This document shows, piece by piece, positions 17,501-53,826 of a stretch of DNA of 64,000 nucleotides. Positions within the stretch are counted from its first letter, which is position 1, and every line of letters begins with the position of its first letter. The notes under the pieces were generated by a model. It was given only the letters and a program-made list of their open reading frames with translations, had not been told where the DNA came from and did not search any database. Source of the stretch: a virus; the IMG/VR virus record IMGVR_UViG_3300047553_000334, positions 1-64,000 of that record; one strand, written 5' to 3'. The position numbers were made by a program, and so were the translations under genes.

Positions 17501-20500
17501 TTGAATCTATTAAAGCCACGTGACGCACAGCGCTTTAAGGATGCGTTAGCAGAGTATGTAAACAAAAAGCGAGCAGAAAGCGGTGATCAAGTATTTGTAT
17601 TTGCTATGGCTGATTTACTTGCAATAGCAGAAGGTTTCAACGAAACTCGCGGTGTATTATTCCGCGCATCTGCTGATGCATCCGAGTTGTCATTTGGTGT
17701 AACTAATAAGGACGCTCATAATGCTGCATACAAAATAAAGTCGAGGCTGGCATCTATAGTTACAGATGTTGAACGTGGAGTTATACCAAATCGATATGAC
17801 TTGGCTGACCAGTTTGACAATCTTGGTGATGCAACTAGTTTCATTGATAAGTTTGAAGCAATAGATATTTACGAGCCGTTACCAGATGACATGGTAACAA
17901 TGAATGACGCTGAGGCACTTGGCACTTTGTATTCGCAAATGTCACGAGACAATGCTTATACAGATGACCAGAAGAAAAAGTTTGACACACTAGCAAAATC
18001 ATATCGTCGTGTTGCACGAAGTAAAGATGACTCACCAGCAAAGGTTATTAATAGATACTCTGATGCACGTGTCGTTTCTGCTAACTTAGCCAAGGTATAT
18101 GACACCTATGCTGCACGTATGGCAACTCAAAAAGTCAGCAATGACATGAAGTTTAACTATGACCTTGATGACTATAAGGCACTGACTGCTTTATTAGGAG
18201 TCAATGCTGAAGTTCAGTCAAAGGTTATGGCAGCTACAAGTGTCAATGAAATCTTTACAGAGGCTGTATTAGATAAGGATCAGCAACGTCAGTTAGTTGC
18301 ATTGCGAGCGGCTCAACTAAAGCAAGACTTCTATAACCAACATCACAAGTTATTCTTTGCACATGAAGCAATGATGAACGAGATGGGATATCAACGCGTT
18401 GCTGATTCCGCACGTGATGTTGACGGCTTTATTACTCGCACTAAGATTGCAAATGCAACATCATCAATCTTGTTTATGGCTGCGTCTAAGAACTTTGGTA
18501 AGAGTGCTTTGACTGTTGCCCATGAAATATCTCACCACTTATTCTTCTCTTTGCCTGATGCACAGCAAGTACGTTGGTTAAAGGCTGTGATTCCACCACT
18601 CAACCGTGACAAGTCTGAAAAGGTTGTGCCAGAAGAAGAGCTGGTTCATGGTTATTTAAACAAGCAAGTTGATTTACTCAACGGATATTCCACACTACAG
18701 GATGTTTATTTATTTAGACGGCAGACAGTTGAGCAGTTTGCTGGAAGTAAATACACTCCCGAACAAATTCATAACGCTAAGATGATTTTAGGAGAACTGT
18801 CTGCTACTAGCTTAATGAACTTTATTCTTAATAGTGGTGTTGTTCATATGCCTAATGACCGTGTGTCAATAGCAGAAGATTTAACTAGCTCACTTCTTAA
18901 CCTGCAGAAAGTCTTGGCTCCTATTGCTAAAACGTTGAGCAGTGAATTTGGTCCGTGGGCAATGGTTGGAGATAAACCAACTAACGTATTCTATTATTCT
19001 CCATCATCAGTTGTGTATGAATCACCTAAAAAAACTGGTGTTAATCGTGTCTTCTATCCTTTAAAACACGGTACGTACGTCCAGTTCATAAACAACATCG
19101 GTAAAAAGTTTAGTTCAGCAACACGTGTGGTTGATATTCACGACGTGATTATGGCTAACAAAGAATTTATTGATGGGCGATCAGACAAACGGCAGCGATT
19201 AGTTGATGCGTTATCTAACGTCATTACAGATAGAGATGCGGTCAATGAAATTGTTGATAAGTTAATTGCATTAAAGACTGAAAATCCACGCGCTGAATAC
19301 GGCAAGCATTACCGTATTAGTTTAAGTGGCGACAAGGCATTTCAGAAACAAGCAGACGGTACTACTGAGGAGCAAGGTTATCCTGTAGTTGGTCGCGTAG
19401 TTGGTATGGCTCACGAACGTGTGACTGCACGGTTTGATCGTGTTAGACCGTTTAAACTTAATGGTCGTGAGTGGTTTATTAGTAGTAAAAACAAAAATGA
19501 CAACTCGCAGTGGTATGGTTTAAATGCCTACGAAAAGGCTAACGGACCAACTAAATTATTACAGAGTGGTATGCGTGGTGATTATGGGTATGTCGTAGAA
19601 AGTACTGCACAGATACGCTTACATACCCTGTTTGAGGGTAAGGATATTGACCTTGGCGATAATAAGATGTCGCGAGTTGATGTACCTGTTAGGTTTATTG
19701 TTGGTCATGACTATATTGATACAAGCCAGAATTTCCATTTAGTCGGTTCTGGTGATGCTGGTAATCCAGCATTTATGTCAATCGTATACAACATGCTTGC
19801 CAAGATTGATCAGAATGTTATTCAAGCTGCTGGTCAACGCACGTATGAGTATGAGTTACGCATAAACAAAGCTTTGTCCGAGGCTATGCGAACAGGTGAC
19901 TATAGCAAATGGGACGAGACTGTCACTGCCCCTCTTGCGTTATCAATGGACAAAGATATTAAAAATATCATTGCTCGTACACCTGTTTCTGAGATTCAAG
20001 CTGTAAGGCAAACTGCAACACATGCATGGTTACGTAATCAAAGTCATTCACGCAGTCTTTACAGATGGGCACGTAACATTAAGGATGAGGGTACACGTTC
20101 TACTGTATTAGGCTTGATTGATAGGATTACGGAACAGCACGCATTTACTGTTGGTGAATCTTTATCTGACTCATCAATCACATCTGCGACCAAGCGATTA
20201 CAGAGTGTTCTTAAAGATGGCAAGGGTTGGTATTCATTCATTCCATTTAGTGCAGATAAGTTTGCAAAGAACGGAATGGCACCAATTGTAACTGCCGTAC
20301 ACGAACAGTTGTTTACTTCATACGATGACCTCATAAGGTTTTACAATGAGGTTAAAGAATCTCGTGCAGAACTATTTGCTAGTCGAGATCAAACATCACT
20401 TGTGCCATATCTTGCACAACCTACTGCATTAACAGTTGCTGGTGAAACTGCTTCTACTGCTGGACGATCGTTTGCTGTCGAAGTAGACGGCGTTAAGGTT

Positions 20501-23500
20501 GATTCAAGTTCATTGATTGAACAGATGTTTGGTTTACATGTTGATAACTTAGACGCCGCTTTCCAACAGTTTCAGATGCAATGGCTTGGTACACAGTTAA
20601 CTAAATGGATTACAGAAAACCAGTCCGTTGTAAGTGGTACGAACAGATCGTTTAGCCAACGTCTGGCTGAACTTTATCAAGGATTAATGACAGGTGATCC
20701 AGATGCATATACTAAATCTGGTTTATCTAAAGACTTTGTTATTGGTGGCAAGCAGATTGACTTAGATAGTGCATTGCGACTAGTTGCTCAAGCAGCTGGA
20801 ACACCAGAAAACTTTGAAAACGGATTGCGGTATTACGCAGGTCAGAGTGATATTGCAATACAGTTTAGTGCGGAAACAGGGCTTAAGGTTGTACCACACG
20901 CAGTGCTGGATCACATTGCCAATAAGATATTTACTAATCAAGATGACATGATTAGATTTATGACAGCTGTTGCTGGAGATACTAGTGACACTGTTTCTCA
21001 AAGTGATGTTATTCGTGCTCGCAATTTATTCAATACTGTTGAGCATATTGTCCGCACAGATGCAAAGATACGTAGTTCTGCATTACGCAACTGGAAAAGT
21101 TACGAGTTGGTGAAAAGTGATCCTAACTCATACGAGGTTATTATTCGTTCTCCTGACAGGGATATTGCTGCAGATGAAGTTGGAGCATCTAAGTCTGGTG
21201 CGCTGTATCGCGTCAATATGCAAACGGGTAAGACACATCTTGTTGCTGAGTCGAGACGTTATGATGCACAAACCAACAAGTGGGTTGAAACATACGAGAA
21301 CATTCAGGATATAGATGACTATCTCCGTTACAACTGGGTACGCAAACCAAATGAAACAGCAAGACGTGATCCATTTGCTTTTGATGCAAAACCACGAGCA
21401 ATCAAATTGGATGCTAAACAGTTGTTTGGATTTGACGATTTCCTGAAAGTCAATGACACGTTAATGGCATTAGCTGGTGAATACGGTGTGTCTCATGGCG
21501 TAGTTAATGATGAGCCAGTGTACTTTATGCTTCCTATATCTATTGCTGAATTAGCTGCCAGCGAGATAAACATCTTTGATCCTGATGTTCCTATTCGTAA
21601 TGCTGGAATGAATATTATTAAGGGCACTTACGATAAGAAAGAAAAACAATGGTCATTTGTAGATACGTCTAACAACTGGCAAGATGCAAATAATTATAGG
21701 TCTCAAATGCCTATGGGTTTATTAGAGATGGTTATTAGTCCATTTGATAAATCTAGTGCAATGACTCTTACGTATGATCGTCAACAAGAAATTGCCAAGC
21801 ACAAAATGCTGCAAGAGGAATATCACATTGCAAAGTTATTGCTTGCCAAGGATAGGAATGTAGATAATCCACAGCATTCAGAATTCACAAAGGTAGGCAA
21901 ACAAGCTTTGTTTAATAGTGAGTCTGATTTAATGCAGGATGCGAGTACTGGTACATGGTTCTCAAGTAGTCCTAAGTTTATGGATGAAACTCCAGACAAC
22001 ATACCTGAATTACGCAAGCCATCTGCATTACATGTTAACGATACTGAAGATCCTATTATTCAGTCAAGTATGGGTGTCCTTGATGATTTGGCTGCTGATG
22101 CAAAAGAAAAAGCATTCCAAGTTCCACAGGAAGTTACGTTCTACCGTGACCCTAAGACAAAGGGTGGAATGCTTCAATCTGGAACTAAAGACAAACTAGT
22201 ACTACAGGTTAGTAGCGACATATATGACAAGTTGGTTACTGATCCATTAAAGGGTAGCCAGTGGGAAACCACAGTAAAAGATGGTCAGGCTATTACTTTA
22301 GATGGTGCTGATGCTGATGTATATTTTGCATCTACTCCTAAGTTTGTTGACACTGCGTACAATGTTTATGCATACGGATTAAAACCTCTACAAGATTTTT
22401 TCCGTGGTGTACTTGGATTAGACCTTTCTGCATTTGCTATTCAGTTAGGCTCAATGATGGTGCGAGCACCGTATCAAACGTTTAAGGCGTTAGTATTATC
22501 TGTCCCTGAGTTATTTGCTGGTAGCAGTGCGGACATTGGACTTGTGCTAGGTTCTCTGTGGCACGGGGCTAGACAACAGCGCAGATTAAAAGGTGAGGGC
22601 CAATGGTTCAACCAGTCTTTAAACCTTGATGCTCGTTACTATGATTTCATCATGAACTCAGTGGTAGATAGATTTAATCAGACTAACATTGGTACTACAG
22701 TATCTATGTCTGAATTAATTGATGATTATTACATGCAGTCTAGTTACTCTGACTGGTATAAGCGATCAAAAGCTAACATGATTGCAGACCCTACTAAATA
22801 CAAATCCATCATAGACACTCCTTGGGAAAGTCAGCGAGAGAACGTGTTTAGTGGTGGAATCATGGGTACTGTTGTACCCGGTTGGCGTAGAGCTGAAATG
22901 ACAAGGCAGTTAATTTTGGATTTAGCTATGCTTCAACAATCATTGTCTGCAGTAAAAGATGCGCGAGCTAATCAAGCTAAAAATAAGGATCGCGATATCT
23001 CTGATAGTGAAGTTGATAAGGATATTAAAGCAGCACTTACCAACCTCGGTAAGGAGATTGGTATTGGGTCTCATGCACGTAGTAAAACTCAGGCTCCTAT
23101 ATGGAGAGCGTTGTCAAATGTTGTGCAATATTTTATGACTGCACCTTCTTATACACGTAACTTTAATCAGTTTGTTGGCTTTACTCCTTTTGTAGGTACA
23201 AAAGAAAAGATTAACGAGTGGTCTAAAATTGCAACGCAAAATGGTCCAGCTTGGTTACGTGGTGAGGTATTTGATATTGAAAGTGACCTCAGGCATCAAA
23301 ACTTTGAGACTGCTTGGGCTGAAAAAAGAAGGATCAAATATAGAAATCAAGCTGCAATAACATGGGGAATTATTGCAGCATTAAATGCATGGGTTAATTT
23401 TCAACAGCATCAAAAGAATCGTCCATATGAAGAGGAAGATAAAACTTCATGGATGGACATCATGAGCAAGCGCTTTGGTTACGTTGAAGTAAACGATAAC

Positions 23501-24334
23501 TGGGCTGTCCAAGTACCTGTGCTTGGTAGGTTTGCTGGATTAGTCAAGCCAATAGCAGAAGCTGCATCTGTGGAAAACTATGGTCCGCTTGAAAAAATTG
23601 AAGCTGGATTTAATGGGCTTACAAAACAGCTTATTAAAAACAAGATTCACAATGGTGGACAGTTTATTATGAGTGCGTTTAGTGGGAAGACTTTTAAAGG
23701 ATTACCTGCAGGCGAACAAGACGCAGGTCTTAAGGTTGCTGTTGAAAATGATGTGCGAGCACCATTCTATTTCCATCCAACTGGATACTTGTTTCCACAA
23801 CAAAGTAAGTTGGCAATGGATACTATGACGCTTGCTCATCAAAGGGCGTATTATGATGACCTTTTGAAATTAGCTATCTATTCTGAAATGGCTAAGAAGG
23901 GTTTGAATGAACAGCAGATTATGCGTGAAGGTGGCGTATTACCATCTGTTCGTGTAAGTCGTCAAGCAGCAAATGAACTGTGGTGGAAAGGTACTGTTCC
24001 ACGTTTGCTTGGATTTAACGTAATGTATGAACCTTACGGATACAAGTACATAAACAAATTCCCAACGCAGTTTGGACAGAGTAGTACGACTCTTGGACGT
24101 ATCGCATACATGAGTAAGGATTGGTATAACTATCCAAATTTATTTGAGACTATGCGTGATCATCCTCGTCAATTGATTAGTGGTTGGCCAATACAGGATG
24201 TAAGTGGGCCATCTTTAGGATTCCCATCAAGTGAATCTCAAGCACGTTCCACACCACGCGAACGCATCAGGTTACCATTGAACAACGTTACACGAGCTTT
24301 GATTCAGTACAATAGCGACAATAGAGGCAAATAA
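11570..24334 (+). CDS. Giant 4254-aa virion protein with HExxH metalloprotease motif
   Basis: One uninterrupted 12.8-kb gene. Visible features in order: a helical N-terminus; Gly/Ala-rich hydrophobic stretches at about residues 295-365; an FFSSSP motif near 1217; long helical regions; a zinc-peptidase motif AHEISHHLFF at about residues 2317-2326 (H2318, E2319, H2322); two more FSSSP/FASTP-type motifs near 3462 and 3583, which look like domain junctions; a hydrophobic segment near 3605-3670; and a C-terminal helical region. The gene ends in TAATG overlap with the lysin. The layout resembles the large polyvalent proteins injected with phage DNA (named in work by Iyer, Aravind and colleagues). 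The protease motif is seen; ejection into the host is inferred. Confidence 0.8.
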   Translation: MPQTNSSRNRSVSDAYWKKRYQQAGVVPKAGGGVTVTKPTQRLGYEAPQDKQSWIQQNYIPITNLIQKGDTRVVSSQVLDIARSGFNSGYINQKQYDYIADNVERFRKALTTPVTSGGEQIPFTTLGQTGARGNFGEVQRSLKHSDLIRYNPDGSWEYDPRDANAAIRANVGRTQGLIKDANTNIFPDVGATAAGLLATVPLRVAKSFGYQPTFDENTFTGRVGRAAEGIEAGLSSFVPTVMSGISNRTRYAMSRAYGRTPEEAEQDAANLMMETPWYQVANAELAPAQTSPNFQLGSVLGMEAAAAVPSLYTSLGLLNAASSLGARVLSPFGSQASSIGRYAGIGAAVAAPPTITAFRDQLTGGQPGVREDIVSGVESFMDPVRTAQQRGTTESQMLGQQEFDPKGVYNTAAQRLGLFTMASGGAREMWRDVKNEAARGMFAFRGRLKETGNPFVAAKTGLAASVETEIGKAAAADLGFALTQPLGDIGRLVYSQTRFDKSKPVDVPKAEDLVIDTLLGLSASRPGKGAQWIFRGNPLERLEPKTMAIAAAVDTVNKQSPEINLLRQRIAELRGPDFKPNEADLRRVASELARTNSANLESLSRMDEIPEGIAIHRTPEEHIRAYVENPDSISVDVRSRYDNLIESMRGAKDKIDIEDGNPLNNLDILDNYRTDLATRRRRINELTKALLPEYEAMFKSMKSNKPVERTPAKYYGLKRGDGTMLVFTSDFESARIVPEHDSPDIQMLGPNYYGESSSRELTAERTAFHRSVVALRETPITLDGVEGVPIAFTGNSIYLKDSLGNVRAYTADKLLDAQRKAKSEGKNELVQQIQDVIDVVNESNKLYREGKISTFQSDGRVSVLTRDRAVRDSRFQVPLIDSPDDSRGRLIDRQNGYGIVQSDTGMYYIVPEIDLRGSDGEIYPVENELDDIHITDLDTENNRITVFLPNVDTGESFPLTLQLTPDQVQAFKNDGVPPDAYEFFREAMDMAEPFKRQVGDIVTIESKYLDGTTASRRYVIVQANADHGVGLPIDNLTGTEPSMVIFDHSGLKVERTNTEFLLREMQNAQRISGYDPTSDRPTDDPLGNIFKYAFWLSNRNTDTTVPVKLVPAIVNATAEELPSILHGHILSSLDDTGLLQNVVGSMREWLAKNPDSAGDFEFIVNQALATELSKGSADVSALALGHLTNIARNADLNDLVDLLIGRFDDEKEVSGETFFSSSPRRIGRSQGQFQIMLSAVNMINSFIRRKGRITDERLTKIITNFLGTNPSFEGNLENAITTIKRLAQLSSSINHLAYGVISEKGAIWMMEKLSALPHEVQVLSALLPFDGVRDIYQDDFGNWFASKEKYDAAVQRARELYADAASRGESGIDDLRSAMYDARLGFFFEIAAAGLEVTTRRPMVNVTDPRAVDVIRANAERASNAVNEMIKRVATAKLAVLSKRLQDNASADTPSVPVRLDELATASLLAAPDGVLHPEQIIDQNATEAAETSLVTMQSVIDNVRQQMDNIDAASVLPGVAVYTPDEATTVGTTALATAAKAHEGKLVLDASKQAFDALPPQVRDIVSSLASPLLWFSDVVRAIDRTGDDNLREALVFALMNAQGTEGASSLSIRLNTLFRTEEAFNRFNDFASVVYDKVNNTDTGRKTAVRGAMDQLLKLVDSMVGEEGTSLVDDAVAYYQGQNLNPILLKTFIELASKELIQSLISNATRVSPEAASDVLGSINTYVENNRERIRRAGAFVGDSAAKAEALRLIESGSTDGLRYLGFSFNGQRRTLIQDAVQSLVNNMSTRKYEGSAMAQAQALLNDARELARTVADFVLGDEGLAVGQDPASAYTPAVEVQSSSFIDALRGGMTFARTSTGPDTAPLLMAGNRAGLEKIILATLLDAANKAELNYESVDKALMEAVVGPEIAKKYFERLKQEDFVKRKIIFSREPVMRAAIIPGVDGRYTLPTGMARKELIEGQAMFNSYVTKMLNLLKPRDAQRFKDALAEYVNKKRAESGDQVFVFAMADLLAIAEGFNETRGVLFRASADASELSFGVTNKDAHNAAYKIKSRLASIVTDVERGVIPNRYDLADQFDNLGDATSFIDKFEAIDIYEPLPDDMVTMNDAEALGTLYSQMSRDNAYTDDQKKKFDTLAKSYRRVARSKDDSPAKVINRYSDARVVSANLAKVYDTYAARMATQKVSNDMKFNYDLDDYKALTALLGVNAEVQSKVMAATSVNEIFTEAVLDKDQQRQLVALRAAQLKQDFYNQHHKLFFAHEAMMNEMGYQRVADSARDVDGFITRTKIANATSSILFMAASKNFGKSALTVAHEISHHLFFSLPDAQQVRWLKAVIPPLNRDKSEKVVPEEELVHGYLNKQVDLLNGYSTLQDVYLFRRQTVEQFAGSKYTPEQIHNAKMILGELSATSLMNFILNSGVVHMPNDRVSIAEDLTSSLLNLQKVLAPIAKTLSSEFGPWAMVGDKPTNVFYYSPSSVVYESPKKTGVNRVFYPLKHGTYVQFINNIGKKFSSATRVVDIHDVIMANKEFIDGRSDKRQRLVDALSNVITDRDAVNEIVDKLIALKTENPRAEYGKHYRISLSGDKAFQKQADGTTEEQGYPVVGRVVGMAHERVTARFDRVRPFKLNGREWFISSKNKNDNSQWYGLNAYEKANGPTKLLQSGMRGDYGYVVESTAQIRLHTLFEGKDIDLGDNKMSRVDVPVRFIVGHDYIDTSQNFHLVGSGDAGNPAFMSIVYNMLAKIDQNVIQAAGQRTYEYELRINKALSEAMRTGDYSKWDETVTAPLALSMDKDIKNIIARTPVSEIQAVRQTATHAWLRNQSHSRSLYRWARNIKDEGTRSTVLGLIDRITEQHAFTVGESLSDSSITSATKRLQSVLKDGKGWYSFIPFSADKFAKNGMAPIVTAVHEQLFTSYDDLIRFYNEVKESRAELFASRDQTSLVPYLAQPTALTVAGETASTAGRSFAVEVDGVKVDSSSLIEQMFGLHVDNLDAAFQQFQMQWLGTQLTKWITENQSVVSGTNRSFSQRLAELYQGLMTGDPDAYTKSGLSKDFVIGGKQIDLDSALRLVAQAAGTPENFENGLRYYAGQSDIAIQFSAETGLKVVPHAVLDHIANKIFTNQDDMIRFMTAVAGDTSDTVSQSDVIRARNLFNTVEHIVRTDAKIRSSALRNWKSYELVKSDPNSYEVIIRSPDRDIAADEVGASKSGALYRVNMQTGKTHLVAESRRYDAQTNKWVETYENIQDIDDYLRYNWVRKPNETARRDPFAFDAKPRAIKLDAKQLFGFDDFLKVNDTLMALAGEYGVSHGVVNDEPVYFMLPISIAELAASEINIFDPDVPIRNAGMNIIKGTYDKKEKQWSFVDTSNNWQDANNYRSQMPMGLLEMVISPFDKSSAMTLTYDRQQEIAKHKMLQEEYHIAKLLLAKDRNVDNPQHSEFTKVGKQALFNSESDLMQDASTGTWFSSSPKFMDETPDNIPELRKPSALHVNDTEDPIIQSSMGVLDDLAADAKEKAFQVPQEVTFYRDPKTKGGMLQSGTKDKLVLQVSSDIYDKLVTDPLKGSQWETTVKDGQAITLDGADADVYFASTPKFVDTAYNVYAYGLKPLQDFFRGVLGLDLSAFAIQLGSMMVRAPYQTFKALVLSVPELFAGSSADIGLVLGSLWHGARQQRRLKGEGQWFNQSLNLDARYYDFIMNSVVDRFNQTNIGTTVSMSELIDDYYMQSSYSDWYKRSKANMIADPTKYKSIIDTPWESQRENVFSGGIMGTVVPGWRRAEMTRQLILDLAMLQQSLSAVKDARANQAKNKDRDISDSEVDKDIKAALTNLGKEIGIGSHARSKTQAPIWRALSNVVQYFMTAPSYTRNFNQFVGFTPFVGTKEKINEWSKIATQNGPAWLRGEVFDIESDLRHQNFETAWAEKRRIKYRNQAAITWGIIAALNAWVNFQQHQKNRPYEEEDKTSWMDIMSKRFGYVEVNDNWAVQVPVLGRFAGLVKPIAEAASVENYGPLEKIEAGFNGLTKQLIKNKIHNGGQFIMSAFSGKTFKGLPAGEQDAGLKVAVENDVRAPFYFHPTGYLFPQQSKLAMDTMTLAHQRAYYDDLLKLAIYSEMAKKGLNEQQIMREGGVLPSVRVSRQAANELWWKGTVPRLLGFNVMYEPYGYKYINKFPTQFGQSSTTLGRIAYMSKDWYNYPNLFETMRDHPRQLISGWPIQDVSGPSLGFPSSESQARSTPRERIRLPLNNVTRALIQYNSDNRGK

Positions 24335-38690: not shown

Positions 38691-38914
38691 AGTTCACTCC
38701 TAAGTTTGTTTACCAACATACCAACGGGATTCTGCATTTTCTCAGCAGCGTGTGCCCCAAATCTGAGGATATCCTCATCATTGAGGTTGTTAAACCCAGA
38801 CATAGCTTCGTTTACGTAGTCCTCTTGGGAGTATTGTGCCCAGAGGAGAATGTCTGTGTCATACATCCACAGTACGTACGTCTTTATCGCGTCTAACGCT
38901 TGCTCTCTTGTCAT
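38687..38914 (-). CDS. Hypothetical protein
   Basis: A 75-aa helical protein, coupled on both sides by ATGA overlaps. No recognised domain. Confidence 0.55.
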   Translation of the reverse strand: MTREQALDAIKTYVLWMYDTDILLWAQYSQEDYVNEAMSGFNNLNDEDILRFGAHAAEKMQNPVGMLVNKLRSEL

Positions 38915-39120
38915 TTGATACCTAACCTTTTGTTTTTGCGTGTCTCACGATCGTCGTGAAACGTCTCGACGAGAAGTGTGTCAAGCTCCTCAACAAGTTG
39001 TCTAAGATGATTCTCCGGCGCTGGAAAAGTCACCCCATGTAATCGATATGTTTTATGCATAGCGCTTGAGACCTCAGCGATCTTGGCTTGCAGCTCATTG
39101 ATTCTTTGTTGATTTTTCAT
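38911..39120 (-). CDS. Small coiled-coil protein downstream of a ribozyme
   Basis: A 69-aa protein with a helical coiled coil (QQRINELQAKIAEVSSAM) and a basic end. I place the start at 39120: the longer open frame would overlap the upstream gene and the ribozyme. GGA lies 8 nt upstream. A type II hammerhead ends 20 nt before it. No family recognised. Confidence 0.5.
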   Translation of the reverse strand: MKNQQRINELQAKIAEVSSAMHKTYRLHGVTFPAPENHLRQLVEELDTLLVETFHDDRETRKNKRLGIK

Positions 39121-39140
39121 GGTTTGTATCCATATGACCT

Positions 39141-39200
39141 GACTCATCAGTGCAAGGCGGTCAACTCTTACAGACTTCTCCGCATGGGAGAAGTTTCGTC
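39141..39200 (-). ncRNA. Hammerhead ribozyme, type II (HHR-b)
   Basis: Minus-strand order: GAC, GAAA (39197-39194), a 7-bp stem III hairpin CUUCUCC / GGAGAAG (39193-39175), UC, a 6-bp stem I hairpin UGUAAG / CUUGCA (39172-39151, one G-U pair), CUGAUGA (39150-39144), GUC. All invariant core bases are present. Cleavage falls after the C at 39173. Stem II is open, 3 bp (GAC/GUC), perhaps longer through an internal loop. It begins right after the stop codon of the 39201 gene. Confidence 0.85.
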
Positions 39201-39653
39201 TTACAAGAGTCCGGTTGCTTCCATACTCTTGAACACCTGCAAGTGGTAGATGCTCCGGTATGTGCCGTACCACATGTGGAAGCCACAGTTCTTGATCGTC
39301 AACAACACATCCTTCTTGAATGGGAAGTTGTGCTCAGGTTGTACGACCTTAGCCTCCTTGCCAGTATGGGCAAAGAACATGGCGTTGATTTGCTCTGCCT
39401 CATCACGGTCAATGAAGAGGCAAAGCATCTGCTCTTTGCTGTCCTTCTCCATAGTGACAACATACTCACCGTCTGTTGTCTGGAGAACGTACGGCCACTG
39501 GGGGAAGTCAAGCATCTCATTGACATCGATGTTGTTCTCATCGGCATACTCGCGTACGCAAAGATGGAAGTTAGTCATCTCTTTCTTGACCTCCTTGGCA
39601 AGCCAAGCGGTTTCGATACGTTTGATCAGATTAGGTTTCTTGTTTGTTTTCAT
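39201..39653 (-). CDS. Hypothetical protein
   Basis: A 150-aa protein with a basic helical N-terminus and a mixed alpha/beta body containing HMWYGTYRSIYHLQ near the end. Only 9 nt separate it from the Csx16-like gene. Its stop codon abuts the type II hammerhead. No family recognised. Confidence 0.6.
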   Translation of the reverse strand: MKTNKKPNLIKRIETAWLAKEVKKEMTNFHLCVREYADENNIDVNEMLDFPQWPYVLQTTDGEYVVTMEKDSKEQMLCLFIDRDEAEQINAMFFAHTGKEAKVVQPEHNFPFKKDVLLTIKNCGFHMWYGTYRSIYHLQVFKSMEATGLL

Positions 39654-39662
39654 TTGTTTCTC

Positions 39663-39992
39663 CTAGTAGTAATTGACACCGACTTCGTCGCGGATGTCGT
39701 TCCATGCCTCAATAGTCATGACTTTGTAACCAACGAGGCTTGCACCGCACTGATCCATTTGCTCTGGAGTCAGCTCCTTGCCTCGCAGTTCCAATGGCAG
39801 GTTAGGTAAATCCACCGACCACACCTCACGGGCATGGCAGGCGAGGTGCATCGGGATGACACCGATGACCTTGCGTCCTCGCATCAGGTCAGGTGTTGCG
39901 TGGGCAACGACTGTTACATCCGGGCTAACGTGCCCGTGCAGTACTAGCCATTGCACCAAGCCAATATGTCGAGAGATAACTATTGTTTCCAT
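39663..39992 (-). CDS. Csx16-like (VVA1548 family) protein, candidate ring nuclease
   Basis: A 109-aa protein, close to the Csx16 family length. I chose the ATG at 39992 over the long upstream extension, which would run through a pseudoknot. Visible family landmarks are IVISRHIGLVQW (4-15), KVIGVIPMHLA (about 41-51) and LPLELRGKELTPEQM (about 65-79), in the same order as Csx16/VVA1548 proteins. Csx16 is a type III CRISPR-linked family proposed to degrade cyclic oligoadenylate messengers. In a phage such a protein would blunt type III immunity, as DUF1874/AcrIII-1 does. The leader holds a hammerhead and a pseudoknot. Family assignment is by pattern; the activity is inference. Confidence 0.75.
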   Translation of the reverse strand: METIVISRHIGLVQWLVLHGHVSPDVTVVAHATPDLMRGRKVIGVIPMHLACHAREVWSVDLPNLPLELRGKELTPEQMDQCGASLVGYKVMTIEAWNDIRDEVGVNYY

Positions 39993-40052: not shown

Positions 40053-40125
40053 AGTGAGATATGGCCACGTTGGCACCACTCACTCGGTCAATGCGGTTAC
40101 GCCTCTTCGTAACCTGTGATATCTG

Positions 40126-40182
40126 ACGTGTTTCGGCGTGACTGCCTCATCAGCCTATAGGAATCACCCTATAGGTACACGT
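40126..40182 (-). ncRNA. Hammerhead ribozyme, type III (HHR-a)
   Basis: Minus-strand order: ACGUG (stem III, 40182-40178), UA, an 8-bp stem I CCUAUAGG / CCUAUAGG with loop GUGAUU, CUGAUGA (40153-40147), a 3-bp stem II GGC / GCC with loop AGUCAC, GAAA (40134-40131), CACGU (stem III). Every invariant core base is present. Cleavage is after the A at 40176. Loops I and II are complementary (GUGA/UCAC), fitting the known loop-loop contact. It lies in the leader of the Csx16-like gene. Confidence 0.9.
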
Positions 40183-40214
40183 TGGGGTGGCACGTGAGCA
40201 CCACCCCGTACTAC

Positions 40215-40325
40215 TTAGTGACCGTATCGATGCATCGGAAGCGTTGACAGCATCCAATACATAAGCACTAAGCCTCCGACGATAATGACGGCAGTGATGC
40301 CGTCCGTGATGAACTTCTTCTTCAT
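40215..40325 (-). CDS. Tiny single-pass membrane protein (36 aa)
   Basis: Minus-strand translation gives MKKKFITDG, a hydrophobic span ITAVIIVGGLVLMYWML, then STLPMHRYGH. The ribosome site GGTGG lies close to the ATG, and the ATG overlaps the preceding stop (ATGA). Positive charges before the span predict an N-in orientation. The function is unknown. Confidence 0.65.
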   Translation of the reverse strand: MKKKFITDGITAVIIVGGLVLMYWMLSTLPMHRYGH

Positions 40326-40561
40326 CTTCCACCCACCTTTCTTGCAAGGGCTACCACTTCAGGGTCGGTGTCGCCACCAACCAAGCGAGCAAGCCCCATC
40401 ATGTGTCCCTCCAGCTCGCGGTAGCTGAAGATGTGCACGTTGACCATCATCTCCCCGCAAGCGGACTTAATGGAGATGGATGTCTTTGAAACGCTTGTCG
40501 GCGTAGAGATGGTGAAGGACCACTTTCGGTTTGCGGTCATGAAGGCGCCATTAAATTCCAT
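40322..40561 (-). CDS. Hypothetical protein
   Basis: A 79-aa protein with a beta-rich N-terminal half (RKWSFTISTPTSVSKTSIS) and a helical end. The ribosome site AAAGGAAAC lies 11 nt from the ATG. It is the first gene after the type III hammerhead at 40590-40647. No family recognised. Confidence 0.55.
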   Translation of the reverse strand: MEFNGAFMTANRKWSFTISTPTSVSKTSISIKSACGEMMVNVHIFSYRELEGHMMGLARLVGGDTDPEVVALARKVGGR

Positions 40562-40589: not shown

Positions 40590-40647
40590 ACGTGTTTCGC
40601 CTAGACTGGCCTCGTCAGCTCATTGCCATCACACAATGAGGACACGT
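40590..40647 (-). ncRNA. Hammerhead ribozyme, type III (HHR-c)
   Basis: Minus-strand order: ACGUG (stem III), UC, a 7-bp stem I CUCAUUG / CAAUGAG with loop UGUGAUGG, CUGACGA (variable position 7 = C), stem II GGCC...GGC, GAAA, CACGU. Stem III is identical to that of HHR-a. Stem II needs one bulged G to pair (GCC/GGC next to the loop AGUCUA), the only deviation. It lies between the terminator at 40658-40673 and the 40561 gene. Confidence 0.75.
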
Positions 40648-40657
40648 TTAAAAGGGT

Positions 40658-40673
40658 GGGGGCTTACGCCCCC
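40658..40673 (-). terminator. Terminator candidate overlapping a stop codon
   Basis: 6-bp GC stem GGGGGC / GCCCCC with loop GTAA, followed in the minus direction by ACCC and TTTT. It overlaps the TAA of the 40664 gene and lies just before HHR-c. Confidence 0.5.
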
Positions 40674-40951
40674 TTGGTGAAGGTGCAGTTGTCGTACTCG
40701 AAACTGCACGGTGTACCGTTCCACTGCCGGGAAATCCAGTACGCCCCTTCGATGTCGATTGGCTTGATGGTGTGCGAGCGACTTGCGCAAGCAAGCATCT
40801 GAAGCAGATATCCGTCTGTCCAGTTAGACATCTGATTCACGAACGTCTTACCGTCTTCGACTACGTATGGACCACGCGTAGTGGTCAGCGTCCACGTACA
40901 TACTACGTACGGTTCACTTGGGGTTGATTGTGTGTGTGTTGCGAATGACAT
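40664..40951 (-). CDS. Hypothetical protein
   Basis: A 95-aa protein, mixed alpha/beta, with several Trp and Tyr. Ribosome site AAAGGAT upstream. It is flanked by terminator hairpins on both sides, so it forms its own transcription unit. No family recognised. Confidence 0.6.
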   Translation of the reverse strand: MSFATHTQSTPSEPYVVCTWTLTTTRGPYVVEDGKTFVNQMSNWTDGYLLQMLACASRSHTIKPIDIEGAYWISRQWNGTPCSFEYDNCTFTKGA

Positions 40952-40986
40952 GGCTCATTATCCTTTATGTGTTTTTTTGAAAAATA

Positions 40987-41015
40987 AAGCACCCGGTATC
41001 GTGTACCGGGTGCTT
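40987..41015 (-). terminator. Rho-independent terminator
   Basis: Perfect 12-bp stem AAGCACCCGGTA / TACCGGGTGCTT with a 5-nt loop, followed in the minus direction by TTTATTTTTC. It lies directly after the stop of the first early gene (41023-41364). It is the strongest terminator in the window. Confidence 0.9.
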
Positions 41016-41022
41016 CCGGGGA

Positions 41023-41462: not shown

Positions 41463-41535
41463 GGTTTTGAAGGTTTCCAGCGGTGGAAACCAGCGGTACC
41501 GGACGACCCCGGAGGGCGTCCACACCATGTATGTA

Positions 41536-41625
41536 GGTCGGTTTTCAGGGCACAGTCACGTCGGGTGGTGGGGTGGCGGTAGTACCCGGCATGGCAAGGG
41601 GGTGGGTCGGTTGCCTCGGCACAGT
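41536..41625 (+). repeat. Pair of direct repeats GGTCGGTT-N6-GCACAGT
   Basis: Copies at 41536-41556 and 41605-41625: 15 of 15 fixed positions match around a different 6-nt centre. They are 69 bp apart, start to start, inside the GC-rich block. This is the shape of a two-part protein-binding site, such as an initiator or regulator iteron. Confidence 0.6.
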
Positions 41626-41724
41626 AGGGACTCCAAACCATATATTCTCAGCTGATCTTTATCTATTTCTCCCATCGCAGAAACTCATCTCCCCACGGAG
41701 AAAATGATTAGGATCCATATAGAT

Positions 41725-41753
41725 TTGCTACAATCAGCTGGTTTAGATATACT
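41725..41753 (+). promoter_or_regulatory. Promoter for the tRNA-Asn operon
   Basis: TTGCTA (-35, 41725-41730), a 17-bp spacer, and TATACT (-10, 41748-41753), a good host-type sigma-70 layout. Transcription would start near 41760, just before the tRNA at 41764. The -10 region overlaps a copy of the TACGGTAT motif at 41749-41761, which could be an operator. Confidence 0.65.
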
Positions 41754-41763
41754 TACGGTATGA

Positions 41764-41835
41764 TCCTACTTAGCTCAGCGGTAGAGCGTCCGGCTGTTAA
41801 CCGGATGGTCGCTGGTTCGATCCCAGCAGTAGGAG
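41764..41835 (+). tRNA. tRNA-Asn (GTT)
   Basis: 72 nt. Acceptor TCCTACT / AGTAGGA is fully paired. The anticodon stem TCCGG / CCGGA holds loop CTGTTAA with anticodon GTT at 41796-41798. The T arm GCTGG-TTCGATC-CCAGC is perfect. CCA is not encoded. It is transcribed from the promoter at 41725-41753. Confidence 0.95.
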
Positions 41836-47445: not shown

Positions 47446-50400
47446 ATGGCATCGTTACTGTCTAGTTTAATCATGGGGCAACCCGGTCAAGCAACGGATA
47501 AAGATAAAGTTAATCAAGGTGCGCAACCACCAGTGCCTCCAACTCCTCCAGCTGGTGGTGCGCCAGGATTACCGTCTATTCCACCTGTTGCACAGCAGCA
47601 ACCAACTGGACAGCAACCGCCATCAAATCAGCCATCCGGAGGACCAGTATTTCCTGCTCCTCCGGGTTTTAATCCAATTCAATTTGACCCTATTGCAAGT
47701 ATGTCAAAGGTTTTTGGAAACCTTCCACAAGCCACAGGAGGTGCACCGGGATCTGTACTTGGACAAACAAAGGCTGAAACAGTAACAAAGATTGATCCTA
47801 ATACATGGGATATGGCAGCCATTCAGCCAAAGGCTGCGCGACTAGATTGGTATTTACGTTCGCAGAAATCTGGATCACTTACTAGTGGTGCTGATTTATT
47901 AAAAGGTATGCAGTCGTTTCTGCAAAGTGAGGCATCTGGTAAATCACAGACAGCAGGTACAACTCGTGCAGATATAACTGGTGATGATCCATTTTTAAAG
48001 ACAGTTAGTTATGCTACGTCGTTGTACAACAATGGCGGAACCGTTGAGCGTAAGATGGCTGATGCTTATGCTAATGGATTGATGTACATGACATCTGCAT
48101 TAGCACGTAATGATCAGCAAGGTGTTGATGCAGCTAAGTTTTATTTAAGTGACTTAAGCGATTACACAGTAGAAGATTTCCGAAGTCCTAAAACACAAAC
48201 GTATTTTGCCAAGCAAGCTGCGTCAGTAGTAAAACCGTACGTATTAAATAAATCATCCGACGAACTTACTAAGATGTCGGAAGAAGTTAAACCGGAAGCT
48301 GTACGGAAAAAATTACTAGGTAACGTTTTATACGACTACGTACAAAGTCGTTTCACGGATTTACGAACCGAAGCACAATCGGGAAGTCCAACTGCAAATG
48401 CTGCTCGTAAAACATTAAATACATTTACTAAGATGTATGGTGACTTGGCACGTCCAGCAATCGAAGGGCAGCGTGACAAACAAGTTGAAATGTTTATGGA
48501 GTCACCGCAAGGTCGTGCTCTTATTGACGATGCCTACGATCAATTCGATGGCCAAGGCTTATTTAATACACAAAAAGCAAAAGACCTTGTTACACGCATG
48601 GGTCAGAAAATTAAGTCAACTCAAGGTACTGGTTCTTTTGATCCAGCTAATGACGTTACTCCACAAGAATTAAAAGATTTCTTTGGTCAAACAAAAATGA
48701 AGCGCTATATATCTAGCGCAATTGACATTGATCCAAATATTAGTGATGAGGCATTACGTCGGTTTGAATTAGACCCGTCAAATGTAGATGACGATGAAAT
48801 GTATGGTGCACTGACACCATCCGGTGTTGCTGCACTTTATGGCAAGAAGGACGACTCTCTTGTTGGAGACGTAGGTCGTGCTGGGCGTCCAGACCCATAT
48901 ATGTATGATCTATCGTCTAACTTCTCGGCTAATCAAACACAAGCACCATCTACATTGTCTGGTGGTAATACAGGGCGTATTAGGTCACGTGCTGAGCTTG
49001 CAGGTGCAATGGCATCTGGATTAGGTTTAAGTGAAGCACAGTTAGAGCAAGCAGCCCGTAAGTTATTCTCTAATACAGACGATATTTCTGAGTTTGTAAA
49101 TGCGGGTATGAATGATTACGACATTGAGTCGGATATTCTGCCAAAGGTACAGACCGACATTAAGTCGTCCCGCATTTCGCAAACAGGTGGCATAAAAACA
49201 GCTGGTACATCCACGGGTACATATAACTTACTTACTGATACGTTTAAAGCCGTAGATGAAGTCATGCCGGGTGGACCACAGCAATCATCATGGTTAAACA
49301 AAAAACGCGCCCTTAACGATATTGCTGTGCAGGCTCGTAATCTTGAAGGCACTGCTGTATCTGCTGCTGGTTCTAGGTTTGCTAAGACTGCTACCGGTGA
49401 ACCAGATTACTTTAATCCAATATTGCCTGACCGTGGTGATCAGGTAGGACGCATACAAATCCTGCAAGATATTTTTAAACATGCAAGTGAGAATTCCAAG
49501 TACCGAACTGATTTACAAAATCTTATTCGCAGTGCAATAGATGGCAGGCCATACACAGGCGACATTAAGATGACTCCATCGCAGTTGTCTTCCGTTGTTA
49601 GTATTTATGCAAAGCACCTAGAAGAAGCTGCGTCAGCAAATCCAACAGCAGCTGGAAGCCCAAACCAGTTATTTAATTCCATGTTTGGCATCCTGCCATC
49701 CGACTATAACAAACGCGATTTGCGCATGAAGATTTTGAAGTCATTGCAATCAGCAAGTCCTTCTAAGTTTAAAACAATGTCGAGCACAATGGAAGTTGAA
49801 CCCAGTGGAAACACTAGGTTAATACCAGTTGCTAATGCTGGACAGGTTATGGAAAATGCGTCTAGCATTCCGGGAGACACTGGAGCAAAAGGTGGACGTA
49901 GTAGTAAAACTGAGAATGCTGCACTAAACAGAGTTGAACGTAGTCAGCAAATTTTAGGCGATATTTTTAAAACTGCTAAAGATTCTATTCTTTCGTATAC
50001 CAATGATATTGGTTTAGGTGAATCAATTGGTGCAACAACTGCTCCATCAAAATTTAAGGATGGCGTAGTCGCAGCGTTTGATAAAGCTATTGGTGATTCT
50101 TTAGCTAAGTACAAAATTGACCCAAATGATAAACCAAAGTTTGACCGCATGGTCGAAAAAATTAAAGAGCAGTTAGTTGATCAGGCATCTACTGAATGGA
50201 TGAAGGGTACTGTAACTGGTCAAGAAGTCGACAATATATTTAAACAATTTGGACAAGTCCAAAGATCCATTGGCGCAACGGGTATGTCTGATGCTGCAGC
50301 ACCAGCAGTAGGACGAAATGTGCCTACTAGAGATGATGCTAATGCAGCTAAAGTAACTGAGGGTCGTAAGATTTATGCTGATGCAGTTGCAGCTCTAGGT

Positions 50401-53400
50401 GGTAATTTACCAGCCAAACAGGAGAGTGTAGATGCACTAGAGGCTAAAGTTCAAGGTGTTATTGATCAGGCAACGAAGCGTGGCAAACCTGATTACGCAG
50501 ACTTTGTTCGTAACTGGCAAACACACTCTAACACAATGTTAGTAGAAGCCAAGCGTGATACTGACAGATATGCAGAGAAGATTAAAAACGCACAACAAGA
50601 CATTGCAACATTAACTAAAGAGTCTAATGCTGAAGGCACCACACCTGCCCGAAAAGCAGAAATACAAAAGCAAATTACACGCCTTACGACTGGTATTAAC
50701 GCAGATGCAAAAAAGGGAAGTCAAGCATTACGCAAATTACAAATGCGTGTGGCGACGTATGGAAAAATCCCAACTCCAGAAGACTATGCTGCTTTACTTG
50801 AAAAGGGTGACGAGCAAACACAGCAGAAGAATCAAGTAGATCTTGAATTCAGGCGCGTACGTGCAAAAGTAAGGGCAGGTGGATTTAAGTCACTAACTGC
50901 AAATGAAAAAGCTTTCTGGCTTGATGAGGGCGTAAAACGTTACGACATCGGTGAGGAAAACTCCATCGGCATCGGACGTAGTACACGTCTAGGATTTAAT
51001 AGTTTCCTTGCTAGTATTGCTGGTACTAACTGGACTATTGTTAATCCTGAGTACGAATTGTTTGATGACAATGAACGTGCACCTAAATATTTAACTGAAA
51101 TTCTTGACCCAAAAACCAATCAGATTATTGGCCACAAATTAAATGACAATGTCAAATTTGCATTCCAGTGGAAAAAAGATGAAAAAACAGGGATGTTTAC
51201 GGATGTAAGCGTCGTTGCTACAGAGTTTGTAAAGCAAGGTAACAATGCAAATAAACCTTTGCGTAAACAGATAATAGAAACTGGCGTCGAACGAGCGATT
51301 GTAAGAGCACGTAACTTTTACGTTGCGTTAGAAGATGACCTAAAAAATATTGATGCACGTGTAAAAGGTGAAACATTTGGTTTACTTAAAACTGACACGC
51401 GTGTAAATAGAAATGCATCCAAATTATCTGGCGTCATTCGTGACATTATGGAATTGGAAGGGCGCGGTTCACTAAATAAAGCAAATCAAACAAATATTGG
51501 AGAGTTAAAGAAAGAAGCCATAAAAGGTTTAACAGCAGCTGGTTATGACCAACCACAAACGTTTCTTAATGAGCTTCTTGCTAAAGATAAAGCTGCAAGA
51601 CAGGTTTTAAATTTCTCAGACACATTACGTACTCGAATGGCAGATCGTATTAATACGTTTGCTGGTAAGACTGTGCGTACGCCACAAGAAATACAAGATG
51701 ACATATCTAGTTATTTTGGCACACAGGAAGCGTCATCTGAAGAATTTAAAAAAATAGAGGATCAGACACGGCTAGAGAAAATTGACTTACTTGATAAGTT
51801 AGGTATTGATGTACGTAGATCCAAAGACAGAGCAGGCAATGTAACAGATGTATCTGTCCCAACGAATGCTGTAGGACTTGCGTTAGATAAGATTGACACA
51901 AAAGGCAAGGTGCGTTTTACAACAACAAAAGAAAACGTTGCCAGTTTACGACAATCAGTAATTGCGAAATTACGACCACTACAAGAACGACTACAAAAAG
52001 AAGTTGATGGTGGTGCATTAGTTGGTCGCGATAGATTACAGAAAATTGCAGAGGCAAAGAAGCTTTCAAAGTTAGCAGGAGATATTAATACTGCTACATC
52101 AGAAGGTGAGTTATCTGGAGTTGTACTGGCATTTACATCTAATGATCCAGCTGTTAAGGCAGCGCAAGATGTAGCAAGAGGGTGGTCAACTAGATCGGAT
52201 AAGCTACCATCAGAAATGTATGCTGCTTATAAACGGTTAGCAGATAAGCAATTAGATGGATCTATCTCTGAGGCAGATGGCAATAAGCTAAAAGCAATTA
52301 GTATTCAATTAAACAAACATCTGCGTGATGTAGCTCCTGAACTCGGTAATAACCCATTGGATAAGTTATATAACTTAGACAACATGGAAACACAGATTGC
52401 ACAAGGATATTTAGATCAAACAACAAAGTCAGACAAGAATCCTTTTAAAGTAATTTTTGGTGAGGCTGCATATAAGATTGCGCGTGTGGATTTGCCACGC
52501 GGTAGATCATCTGAAGGTGACGCAGAATTCATCAAGAAGTGGACGAGTAAATGGAAGCGCAAGGACAAAGATCGTCTAGAAAGAGAAATGGATATTGCTA
52601 AGACATTAGGTCTTAGTGTTAACAAATTAGAACTTGGAGACGTTTGGCGACAGCTTGAAAAGAGATTTAATAGTATGTCTCCAAAACAATGGCTAGAGTA
52701 CACATATGGATTACCTGAAGATGCACGTAATCTTGTGTTGCGAGAATATCCATTGCAGTCGCAATCATTGATGCCAAATCAATTAGGTGAGGGCGACGGA
52801 TTATCACGTCGTGAAATTAACAGACGTCTTCTTACTGTAACGCCGGATGGACATGTTGTTCCTGCAGCTAAAGAAACAAAAACAGCTCCGCAGGTGGTTA
52901 AAGAAAACCGGATGCCATTTAGTGAGAAGTATGATGACGCACTTATGTGGAAGATACGTAACAATGCAGTTGAATACACTGACATTCTGCATGATTCACT
53001 TAAATCCTATAAGTATGAAGTAAAAGGCCCAGACGGTAAAACTGTAAAGGTAAATGGTGATGCATCATTTACCGTAGAAAAAACTATAACCCAAAATGGT
53101 AAACAAGTTACAGTTAAGGAACTCAAACCCGGATATACCGTACTTGGTGCTACTGAGTCAGTTACAAATACACTTACTGGGGAACGTACAACTCGTGAAG
53201 TTCCAACACAATCTGACTATATGGTCAATGGTAAAAAGATAACTGTTCCGTTGTTTAACCGACAAGCACTTTTGCTGTCTACTAGACTTCCTGCGTCGAT
53301 AGATGTAGACATAGTTGATAAGAAGTTAGTTAAAGTTGAGCCAGTATTTAAACCAAGGGCACTGCCATCAACAACTGTTGAACCAGAAGGTAGATTAGGT

Positions 53401-53826
53401 TTTAGGTATGAAGGAAAAGACTACTGGATTGGCAGACGTGATTACAAAGCATTTGTAGATAAAATCAATAGTGGCGAAATTGATAAGAAGAATATACGTC
53501 AATTAGTTACGGAACTTGTAACACGTGTGCGAATGAATCCAGAGTTTCCGGGTGAAGTGCAGAAGTACACAAAGATTAGCGCAAGTGTTCGCGGAGCTGA
53601 TGCTAAGAAAGAAGAAGAAGGTGTCAAGATACCCGCAGATGTACAACAAAGGCTTATTGCAGATTCTGAAAACAAGGGTCTTGGTGGAATTGTCACAAAT
53701 AAGGGTGCACGTCACAGTGTTAGTTTCTTAGGTGCATTAATGCTTGCATTTAAAACATATGGCAAAAAATTTATTAGTAGTTATGTTGAGGCTGAACGTA
53801 AAGCTGCAGAAGGAGACAAAAAATGA
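47446..53826 (+). CDS. Giant 2126-aa helical virion-type protein
   Basis: A 6.4-kb gene. The N-terminal 120 residues are Pro/Gln/Gly-rich and disordered (PPVPPTPPAGG). The rest is mostly helical, with charged, coiled-coil-like stretches and an acidic/basic C-terminus. I see no walker, protease, lysin or polymerase motif. The gene overlaps its 210-aa companion by 4 nt. By size and order it may be a second injected or internal protein, or a scaffold. Unassigned. Confidence 0.65.
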   Translation: MASLLSSLIMGQPGQATDKDKVNQGAQPPVPPTPPAGGAPGLPSIPPVAQQQPTGQQPPSNQPSGGPVFPAPPGFNPIQFDPIASMSKVFGNLPQATGGAPGSVLGQTKAETVTKIDPNTWDMAAIQPKAARLDWYLRSQKSGSLTSGADLLKGMQSFLQSEASGKSQTAGTTRADITGDDPFLKTVSYATSLYNNGGTVERKMADAYANGLMYMTSALARNDQQGVDAAKFYLSDLSDYTVEDFRSPKTQTYFAKQAASVVKPYVLNKSSDELTKMSEEVKPEAVRKKLLGNVLYDYVQSRFTDLRTEAQSGSPTANAARKTLNTFTKMYGDLARPAIEGQRDKQVEMFMESPQGRALIDDAYDQFDGQGLFNTQKAKDLVTRMGQKIKSTQGTGSFDPANDVTPQELKDFFGQTKMKRYISSAIDIDPNISDEALRRFELDPSNVDDDEMYGALTPSGVAALYGKKDDSLVGDVGRAGRPDPYMYDLSSNFSANQTQAPSTLSGGNTGRIRSRAELAGAMASGLGLSEAQLEQAARKLFSNTDDISEFVNAGMNDYDIESDILPKVQTDIKSSRISQTGGIKTAGTSTGTYNLLTDTFKAVDEVMPGGPQQSSWLNKKRALNDIAVQARNLEGTAVSAAGSRFAKTATGEPDYFNPILPDRGDQVGRIQILQDIFKHASENSKYRTDLQNLIRSAIDGRPYTGDIKMTPSQLSSVVSIYAKHLEEAASANPTAAGSPNQLFNSMFGILPSDYNKRDLRMKILKSLQSASPSKFKTMSSTMEVEPSGNTRLIPVANAGQVMENASSIPGDTGAKGGRSSKTENAALNRVERSQQILGDIFKTAKDSILSYTNDIGLGESIGATTAPSKFKDGVVAAFDKAIGDSLAKYKIDPNDKPKFDRMVEKIKEQLVDQASTEWMKGTVTGQEVDNIFKQFGQVQRSIGATGMSDAAAPAVGRNVPTRDDANAAKVTEGRKIYADAVAALGGNLPAKQESVDALEAKVQGVIDQATKRGKPDYADFVRNWQTHSNTMLVEAKRDTDRYAEKIKNAQQDIATLTKESNAEGTTPARKAEIQKQITRLTTGINADAKKGSQALRKLQMRVATYGKIPTPEDYAALLEKGDEQTQQKNQVDLEFRRVRAKVRAGGFKSLTANEKAFWLDEGVKRYDIGEENSIGIGRSTRLGFNSFLASIAGTNWTIVNPEYELFDDNERAPKYLTEILDPKTNQIIGHKLNDNVKFAFQWKKDEKTGMFTDVSVVATEFVKQGNNANKPLRKQIIETGVERAIVRARNFYVALEDDLKNIDARVKGETFGLLKTDTRVNRNASKLSGVIRDIMELEGRGSLNKANQTNIGELKKEAIKGLTAAGYDQPQTFLNELLAKDKAARQVLNFSDTLRTRMADRINTFAGKTVRTPQEIQDDISSYFGTQEASSEEFKKIEDQTRLEKIDLLDKLGIDVRRSKDRAGNVTDVSVPTNAVGLALDKIDTKGKVRFTTTKENVASLRQSVIAKLRPLQERLQKEVDGGALVGRDRLQKIAEAKKLSKLAGDINTATSEGELSGVVLAFTSNDPAVKAAQDVARGWSTRSDKLPSEMYAAYKRLADKQLDGSISEADGNKLKAISIQLNKHLRDVAPELGNNPLDKLYNLDNMETQIAQGYLDQTTKSDKNPFKVIFGEAAYKIARVDLPRGRSSEGDAEFIKKWTSKWKRKDKDRLEREMDIAKTLGLSVNKLELGDVWRQLEKRFNSMSPKQWLEYTYGLPEDARNLVLREYPLQSQSLMPNQLGEGDGLSRREINRRLLTVTPDGHVVPAAKETKTAPQVVKENRMPFSEKYDDALMWKIRNNAVEYTDILHDSLKSYKYEVKGPDGKTVKVNGDASFTVEKTITQNGKQVTVKELKPGYTVLGATESVTNTLTGERTTREVPTQSDYMVNGKKITVPLFNRQALLLSTRLPASIDVDIVDKKLVKVEPVFKPRALPSTTVEPEGRLGFRYEGKDYWIGRRDYKAFVDKINSGEIDKKNIRQLVTELVTRVRMNPEFPGEVQKYTKISASVRGADAKKEEEGVKIPADVQQRLIADSENKGLGGIVTNKGARHSVSFLGALMLAFKTYGKKFISSYVEAERKAAEGDKK

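Follow-up and report, generated by a model that had tools for sequence, protein, structure and literature searches.

Three covarying hammerhead ribozymes in one phage operon and their proposed role in forming mRNA 3' ends

The window analysed here is a stretch of 64,000 bases from a virus record of 65,874 bases, and its genes for a portal, a terminase and a major head protein identify the virus as a tailed phage. Its large terminase is 27-28% identical to those of the nearest phage records, and there is no close cultured relative; a scan of genome contigs gave two matches, both in alphaproteobacterial MAGs. Relatives were gathered by pattern scans of IMG/VR, giving about seven distinct phages when the window's own is included. 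Very large open frames are also present, one of 4254 aa at 11570-24334 (+) and one of 2126 aa at 47446-53826 (+), the latter without a match in PHROGs.

Three hammerhead ribozymes, HHR-A, HHR-B and HHR-C, lie within about 1.5 kb of one another on the strand of a leftward operon, and all three are intergenic. Along the minus strand, the gene F10 (40664-40951, 95 aa, without known family) lies upstream of HHR-A (40590-40647). The interval between HHR-A and HHR-B holds F3 (40322-40561, 79 aa, also without known family), and F11 (40215-40325, 36 aa, with one likely membrane helix) lies upstream of HHR-B (40126-40182). On the far side of HHR-B are a Csx16-like gene (39663-39992, 109 aa) and F0 (39201-39653, 150 aa, without known family), the stop codon of which abuts HHR-C; F1 (38911-39120) lies 3' of HHR-C, and both F0 and F1 are found in all seven phages. 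The distance from the end of the preceding stop codon to the predicted cut is 23 nt for HHR-A, 39 nt for HHR-B and 28 nt for HHR-C. Promoter scans performed no better than scans of shuffled sequence. Upstream of the ribozyme operon and adjoining a tRNA-Asn gene (41764-41835, plus strand), a segment of about 235 nt in which no gene is convincing (41498-41732, minus strand) is 74-84% identical across the seven phages, and it could be a promoter region, a leader RNA or an antitermination element.

HHR-B is the site at which an earlier note had reported a complete type III hammerhead, and this assignment is confirmed at the level of sequence for the minus strand from 40182 to 40126. The 57-nt element reads ACGUGUA^CCUAUAGG GUGAUU CCUAUAGG CUGAUGA GGC AGUCAC GCC GAAACACGU. 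Its core is complete, with CUGAUGA, GAAA and the cut triplet GUA agreeing with the consensus CUGANGA ... GAAA and UH17. Stem III is formed by ACGUG/CACGU, stem I by CCUAUAGG/CCUAUAGG with loop GUGAUU and stem II by GGC/GCC with loop AGUCAC, as had been proposed; the helices measure 9/3/6 bp (I/II/III) when G-U pairs are allowed. Loops close the first two stems and stem III is open, which is the topology of type III. The cut, which the note had placed after 40176, is predicted between 40176 and 40175 (GUA^C). A descriptor scan of the window ranked HHR-B top and gave no matches in 20 dinucleotide shuffles, and the 86-nt HHR-B region had no match among 50,697 phage records.

The comparison with Rfam gave a divided answer. 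A default Rfam scan of the window reported no hammerhead, while permissive scans placed HHR-C above its cut-off and saw HHR-A and HHR-B locally, below theirs. HHR-B shares with the Hammerhead_3 family (RF00008) the core, the order of stems with III open and the cut triplet, but it scores 16.0 bits against a cut-off of 48.5. The earlier note had named a covariance score below the family threshold as grounds for rejecting the hammerhead, and read literally this score rejects it; R1, a covariance model built from the relatives alone, nonetheless gives HHR-B 70.6 bits (E 4e-21) and HHR-A 64.2 bits, the best match in the window outside both type III sites reaching 9.1 bits. Because of the R1 score, the low RF00008 score is taken as a limit in the coverage of that model and not as absence of the feature: the Rfam type III model fits the phage branch of HHR-B poorly.

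The earlier note had overlooked two further hammerheads of this strand, HHR-A at 40647-40590 and HHR-C at 39200-39141. HHR-A is a second type III hammerhead, with the core CUGACGA, GAAA and GUC and a predicted cut between 40641 and 40640 (GUC^C); it is recognised by its core match, its R1 score and its presence in seven of seven phages. Its stem II holds a single additional G; five of the seven A copies have such a G, and these copies may be slow cleavers. HHR-C has a type II core with stem II open and a predicted cut between 39173 and 39172 (GUC^U), and with its pseudoknot tail it extends over 39133-39201 (minus strand). It scores 37.5 bits on RF02276, the cut-off of which is 37, and it has the pseudoknot of type II, in which loop I forms four to five pairs with the 3' tail and both partners have changed in two of these pairs; the copies in relatives fall below the cut-off, at 27-36 bits. 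Stem I of HHR-C covaries among the relatives.

HHR-A and HHR-C are found in all seven phages and HHR-B in four (the window's, G002, G003 and G007), being absent from G005, G006 and G008. The core is intact in all 11 type III copies from the seven phages. On aligning them, it was found that 95.6% of cells pair and that 12 pairs have changes on both sides, neither value being reached in 500 shuffles; kinship can inflate such shuffle tests, and the compensatory changes can be read straight from the alignments. When the structures were slid by 1-3 columns, 29-41% of cells paired. Stems I and III covary, and stem II is constant in its GC pairs. Counts for stem II were excluded from the evidence, since the place that MAFFT gave this stem changed when the window was included or left out; the second of these alignments underlies R1, whose stem II fits the A copies imperfectly as a result. 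The earlier note had also pointed to complementary loops I and II, as in fast natural hammerheads. This holds for HHR-B of the window, where GUGAU of loop I can form five pairs with GUCAC of loop II, but not fully for the relatives, since one pair is lost in the B copies and only about three are left in most A copies; across the type III family, 88.6% of cells pair for the four pairs tested, with no pair changed on both sides.

The gene downstream of HHR-B had been called Csx16-like, and it was found to match Pfam PF09652 (Cas_VVA1548/Csx16) with 62 bits against a cut-off of 25; on TIGR02620 (NCBIfam) it scores 35.9 bits, below 46.35. Activity as a cA4 ring nuclease has been shown for a representative Csx16 protein, and among 28,114 phage genomes two were reported to have Csx16 (PMC12409355). 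Among the annotated phage records searched, Csx16 matches were seen only in the Methanobacterium viruses Drs3 and PhiF3, and a search of viral contigs with Csx16 as the query gave no relatives. Judged by its sequence, the gene is a candidate cA4 ring nuclease and a candidate type III anti-CRISPR in a phage without cultured relatives.

The suggested pairing of ribozyme and csx16 as leader and gene was not supported by comparison with the relatives. HHR-B stands at the same place in G002, G003 and G007, where the next gene on its 3' side is an unrelated one of about 207 aa. A search of nine related records, of which some are fragments, gave no csx16, and in the family this gene is known from the phage of the window alone. 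The sequence shared with the relatives stops after TCAGATATCA (40117-40126, minus strand), a conserved segment 3' of HHR-B, so that the ribozyme stayed in place while the gene cassette behind it was swapped. Because of this exchange, HHR-B cannot be regarded as a conserved leader element of csx16. The start of csx16 lies 183 nt past the HHR-B cut, whereas the upstream stop codon is only 39 nt before it, and any link between HHR-B and csx16 would be a weak one.

The earlier note knew of no hammerhead beside a gene of this kind. A precedent is found in the clustered hammerheads of phages and prophages described by Perreault et al. (2011; PMC3088659). These clusters flank genes of variable identity, an example being the triple of Agrobacterium tumefaciens around the anti-defence gene ardA. 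Three tandem sets were found to cut in vitro, and the one around ardA also cut in E. coli. It was proposed that the clusters process transcripts into single-gene or operon-length mRNAs, while the role of phage hammerheads was described as an open question (Perreault et al. 2011; PMC3088659). A review of 2017 still regarded the role of prokaryotic hammerheads as open and noted that small ORFs are often flanked by them (PMC6155905). The gene maps of the seven phages show several hammerheads on the same strand flanking genes that are not constant, and the set in the window belongs to these already known clustered phage hammerheads, the lineage being new. The likeness to the published clusters extends to several hammerheads per operon, varying flanked genes or short blocks, an anti-defence gene nearby and a phage setting. 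Unlike them, the present set comes from an uncultured phage lineage, combines two type III copies with one of type II that covary in seven phages, and has separate hairpins before its type III copies, which receive no mention in the consulted sections of that paper.

These hairpins lie just upstream of both type III ribozymes. The one before HHR-B (40184-40207, minus strand) has the sequence GGGGUGGUGCUCACGUGCCACCCC, the upstream sequence of this ribozyme being also given as GGGGUGGUGCUNACGUGCCACCCC; it is kept in all four phages with HHR-B, and its fold energy is within the lowest 0.4% of random positions. The one before HHR-A, GGGGGC-GUAA-GCCCCC (40658-40673, minus strand), contains in its loop the stop codon of the preceding gene in the window, and the loop reads GNAA or UUAG in relatives. 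In HHR-C, its own stem III serves as the hairpin before the cut. Each of the 11 type III cuts in the family comes after a hairpin whose fold energy ranks within the lowest 0.4-2.3% of random positions, though these cuts represent two homologous sites and not 11 independent cases.

Intrinsic terminators were considered for these hairpins and rejected. The likeness is that of a GC-rich hairpin right after a stop codon; unlike terminators, these are followed by a ribozyme and have no U tract, and neither is among the terminator-like sites of the window. After comparable phage hairpins, a U tract (at least 5 T in the next 8 nt) was seen in 0 of 37 cases. A strong terminator-like hairpin is present at 40986-41016 (minus strand), just ahead of the ribozyme part of the operon, and has a T-rich tail, unlike the hairpins preceding the ribozymes, which lack a U tract.

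Phage hammerheads in general were surveyed in two samples, a hairpin being counted when it had at least 6 bp and lay at most 4 nt from the 5' edge of the ribozyme. The first sample comprised 322 hammerheads, mostly of type I, from two core scans of viral contigs. With near copies removed, an upstream hairpin was found for 57% of 65 type III copies; among 203 type I copies the share was 2% and at random sites 2.8%, and there was no comparable enrichment 3' of the ribozymes. The second sample was drawn with a different core pattern, members of the first being removed, and gave shares of 30% for 43 type III copies, 6.7% for 104 type I copies and 2.9% for random sites. The direction was thus unchanged and the effect smaller; since the hypothesis came from the first sample, the second is the fairer estimate. 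In the first sample, the median distance of the ribozyme 5' edge was 1.5 nt to the upstream stop codon and 30.5 nt to the following start that has a Shine-Dalgarno sequence; the closeness to the stop is partly expected because a ribosome-binding site needs room on the other side. Hairpins were also associated with a nearby stop codon (39 of 47 against 6 of 18, p 0.0002), an association that was weaker in the second sample (p = 0.067). A short stem III was considered as an explanation of the hairpins and was unsupported, as hairpin presence did not follow stem III length in the first sample (rho 0.11, p 0.40), in which few long stems were represented.

Two further observations were made on the viral contigs. 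Four of them (L105, L145, L125 and L359) carry four to seven same-strand hammerheads or core patterns within a few kb. In eight others (L289, L265, L226, L242, L233, L266, L268 and L284), a near-identical hairpin, GUGUCUUCAAAGACAC or close variants of it, recurs before type III hammerheads, with up to five type III copies per contig.

The explanation that we favour, with a chance somewhat better than even, is that ribozymes A, B and C form the 3' ends of the upstream mRNAs by cutting the operon transcript, the ends being protected by hairpins. It builds on motifs, their conservation and covariation, their position and their flanking hairpins, all of which are observed. The leftward operon would be transcribed as a single RNA, as the gene order suggests, and the two type III copies and the type II copy would cut it in cis at 40641/40640, 40176/40175 and 39173/39172. 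Such cutting is likely because of the covariation and because of the proven activity of similar sets (PMC3088659). Each ribozyme would thus be part of the 3' end of the preceding gene, at or shortly past its stop codon. The upstream product would end in a stable hairpin, followed by a short tail bearing a 2',3'-cyclic phosphate, the hairpin being stem III itself in type II and a separate GC-rich hairpin just 5' of both type III copies; the downstream product would start with a 5'-OH and the hairpin of stem I. A long transcript would in this way be converted, without terminators, to small mRNAs with guarded ends and independent stability, while csx16 and other genes would be exchanged between the cut sites. 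Co-transcription, cleavage in the cell and protection of the ends by the hairpin are what we infer here.

The same hairpins might instead help the ribozyme to fold, stacking on the short open stem III of type III or shielding this stem against the RNA upstream, in which case the transcript would still be split and the hairpins would have no role in mRNA stability. This fits the finding that 32 of 36 hairpins lie at distance 0 from stem III and that the effect is specific to type III, in which stem III is open; it fits less well with the independence of hairpins from stem III length, few long stems having been sampled, and with their tie to gene ends, weaker as this is in the second sample, and it is regarded as unlikely, if worth serious attention. 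The ribozymes could also act on the other side of the cut, as 5'-leader devices giving csx16 or its counterparts a 5'-OH and a 5' stem-loop that alter stability or translation. After cuts of types II and III the downstream RNA does begin with stem I, and AGGUC, the pseudoknot strand of HHR-C, is located a few nt ahead of a start codon in G006 and G007. Yet the ribozyme is constant while the downstream genes vary (F4, csx16 and others), stop codons are closer to the ribozymes than starts, type I leaves no 5' hairpin, and there is less structure in the RNA 3' of ribozymes than at random sites, so that a leader function seems improbable, a shade more so than a folding aid.

Much smaller probabilities were assigned to two other readings. 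A and B have identical stem III strands (ACGUGU/ACACGU) in the window, G002 and G007, and the ends of an excised RNA could for this reason rebuild a hammerhead; cuts at A and B followed by ribozyme ligation would then give a circular RNA of about 465 nt with F3 and F11, or would splice these genes out. This was rated lowest of all, with hardly any probability, because in G003 these strands do not agree between A and B. Moreover, HHR-B is missing in G005, G006 and G008, A and B may simply be duplicates, and Perreault et al. sought circular or spliced products of their clusters and found none (PMC3088659). It is also very improbable that the ribozymes are relics that have lost their activity, or passengers that do nothing for the phage, given compensatory changes in every varying helix and intact cores in seven phages.

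Formation of mRNA 3' ends by the ribozymes may be more widespread. We tentatively propose, at somewhat less than an even chance, that phage hammerheads of all three topologies constitute one functional class for terminator-free 3'-end formation. The constant feature would be a hairpin directly 5' of the cut, for which types I and II would use stem III and type III would recruit a separate hairpin beside the upstream stop codon. This hairpin rule was not found in the literature searched, and its novelty is uncertain because the search covered only openly licensed papers. Since the Rfam type III model can miss phage copies, counts of hammerheads based on Rfam are likely too low. With three covarying ribozymes in about 1.5 kb and genes exchanged between the cuts, the operon offers a compact natural test of the role of hammerheads in phages, and the hairpin rule makes 'processing' a specific and falsifiable claim on the 3' ends of mRNAs.
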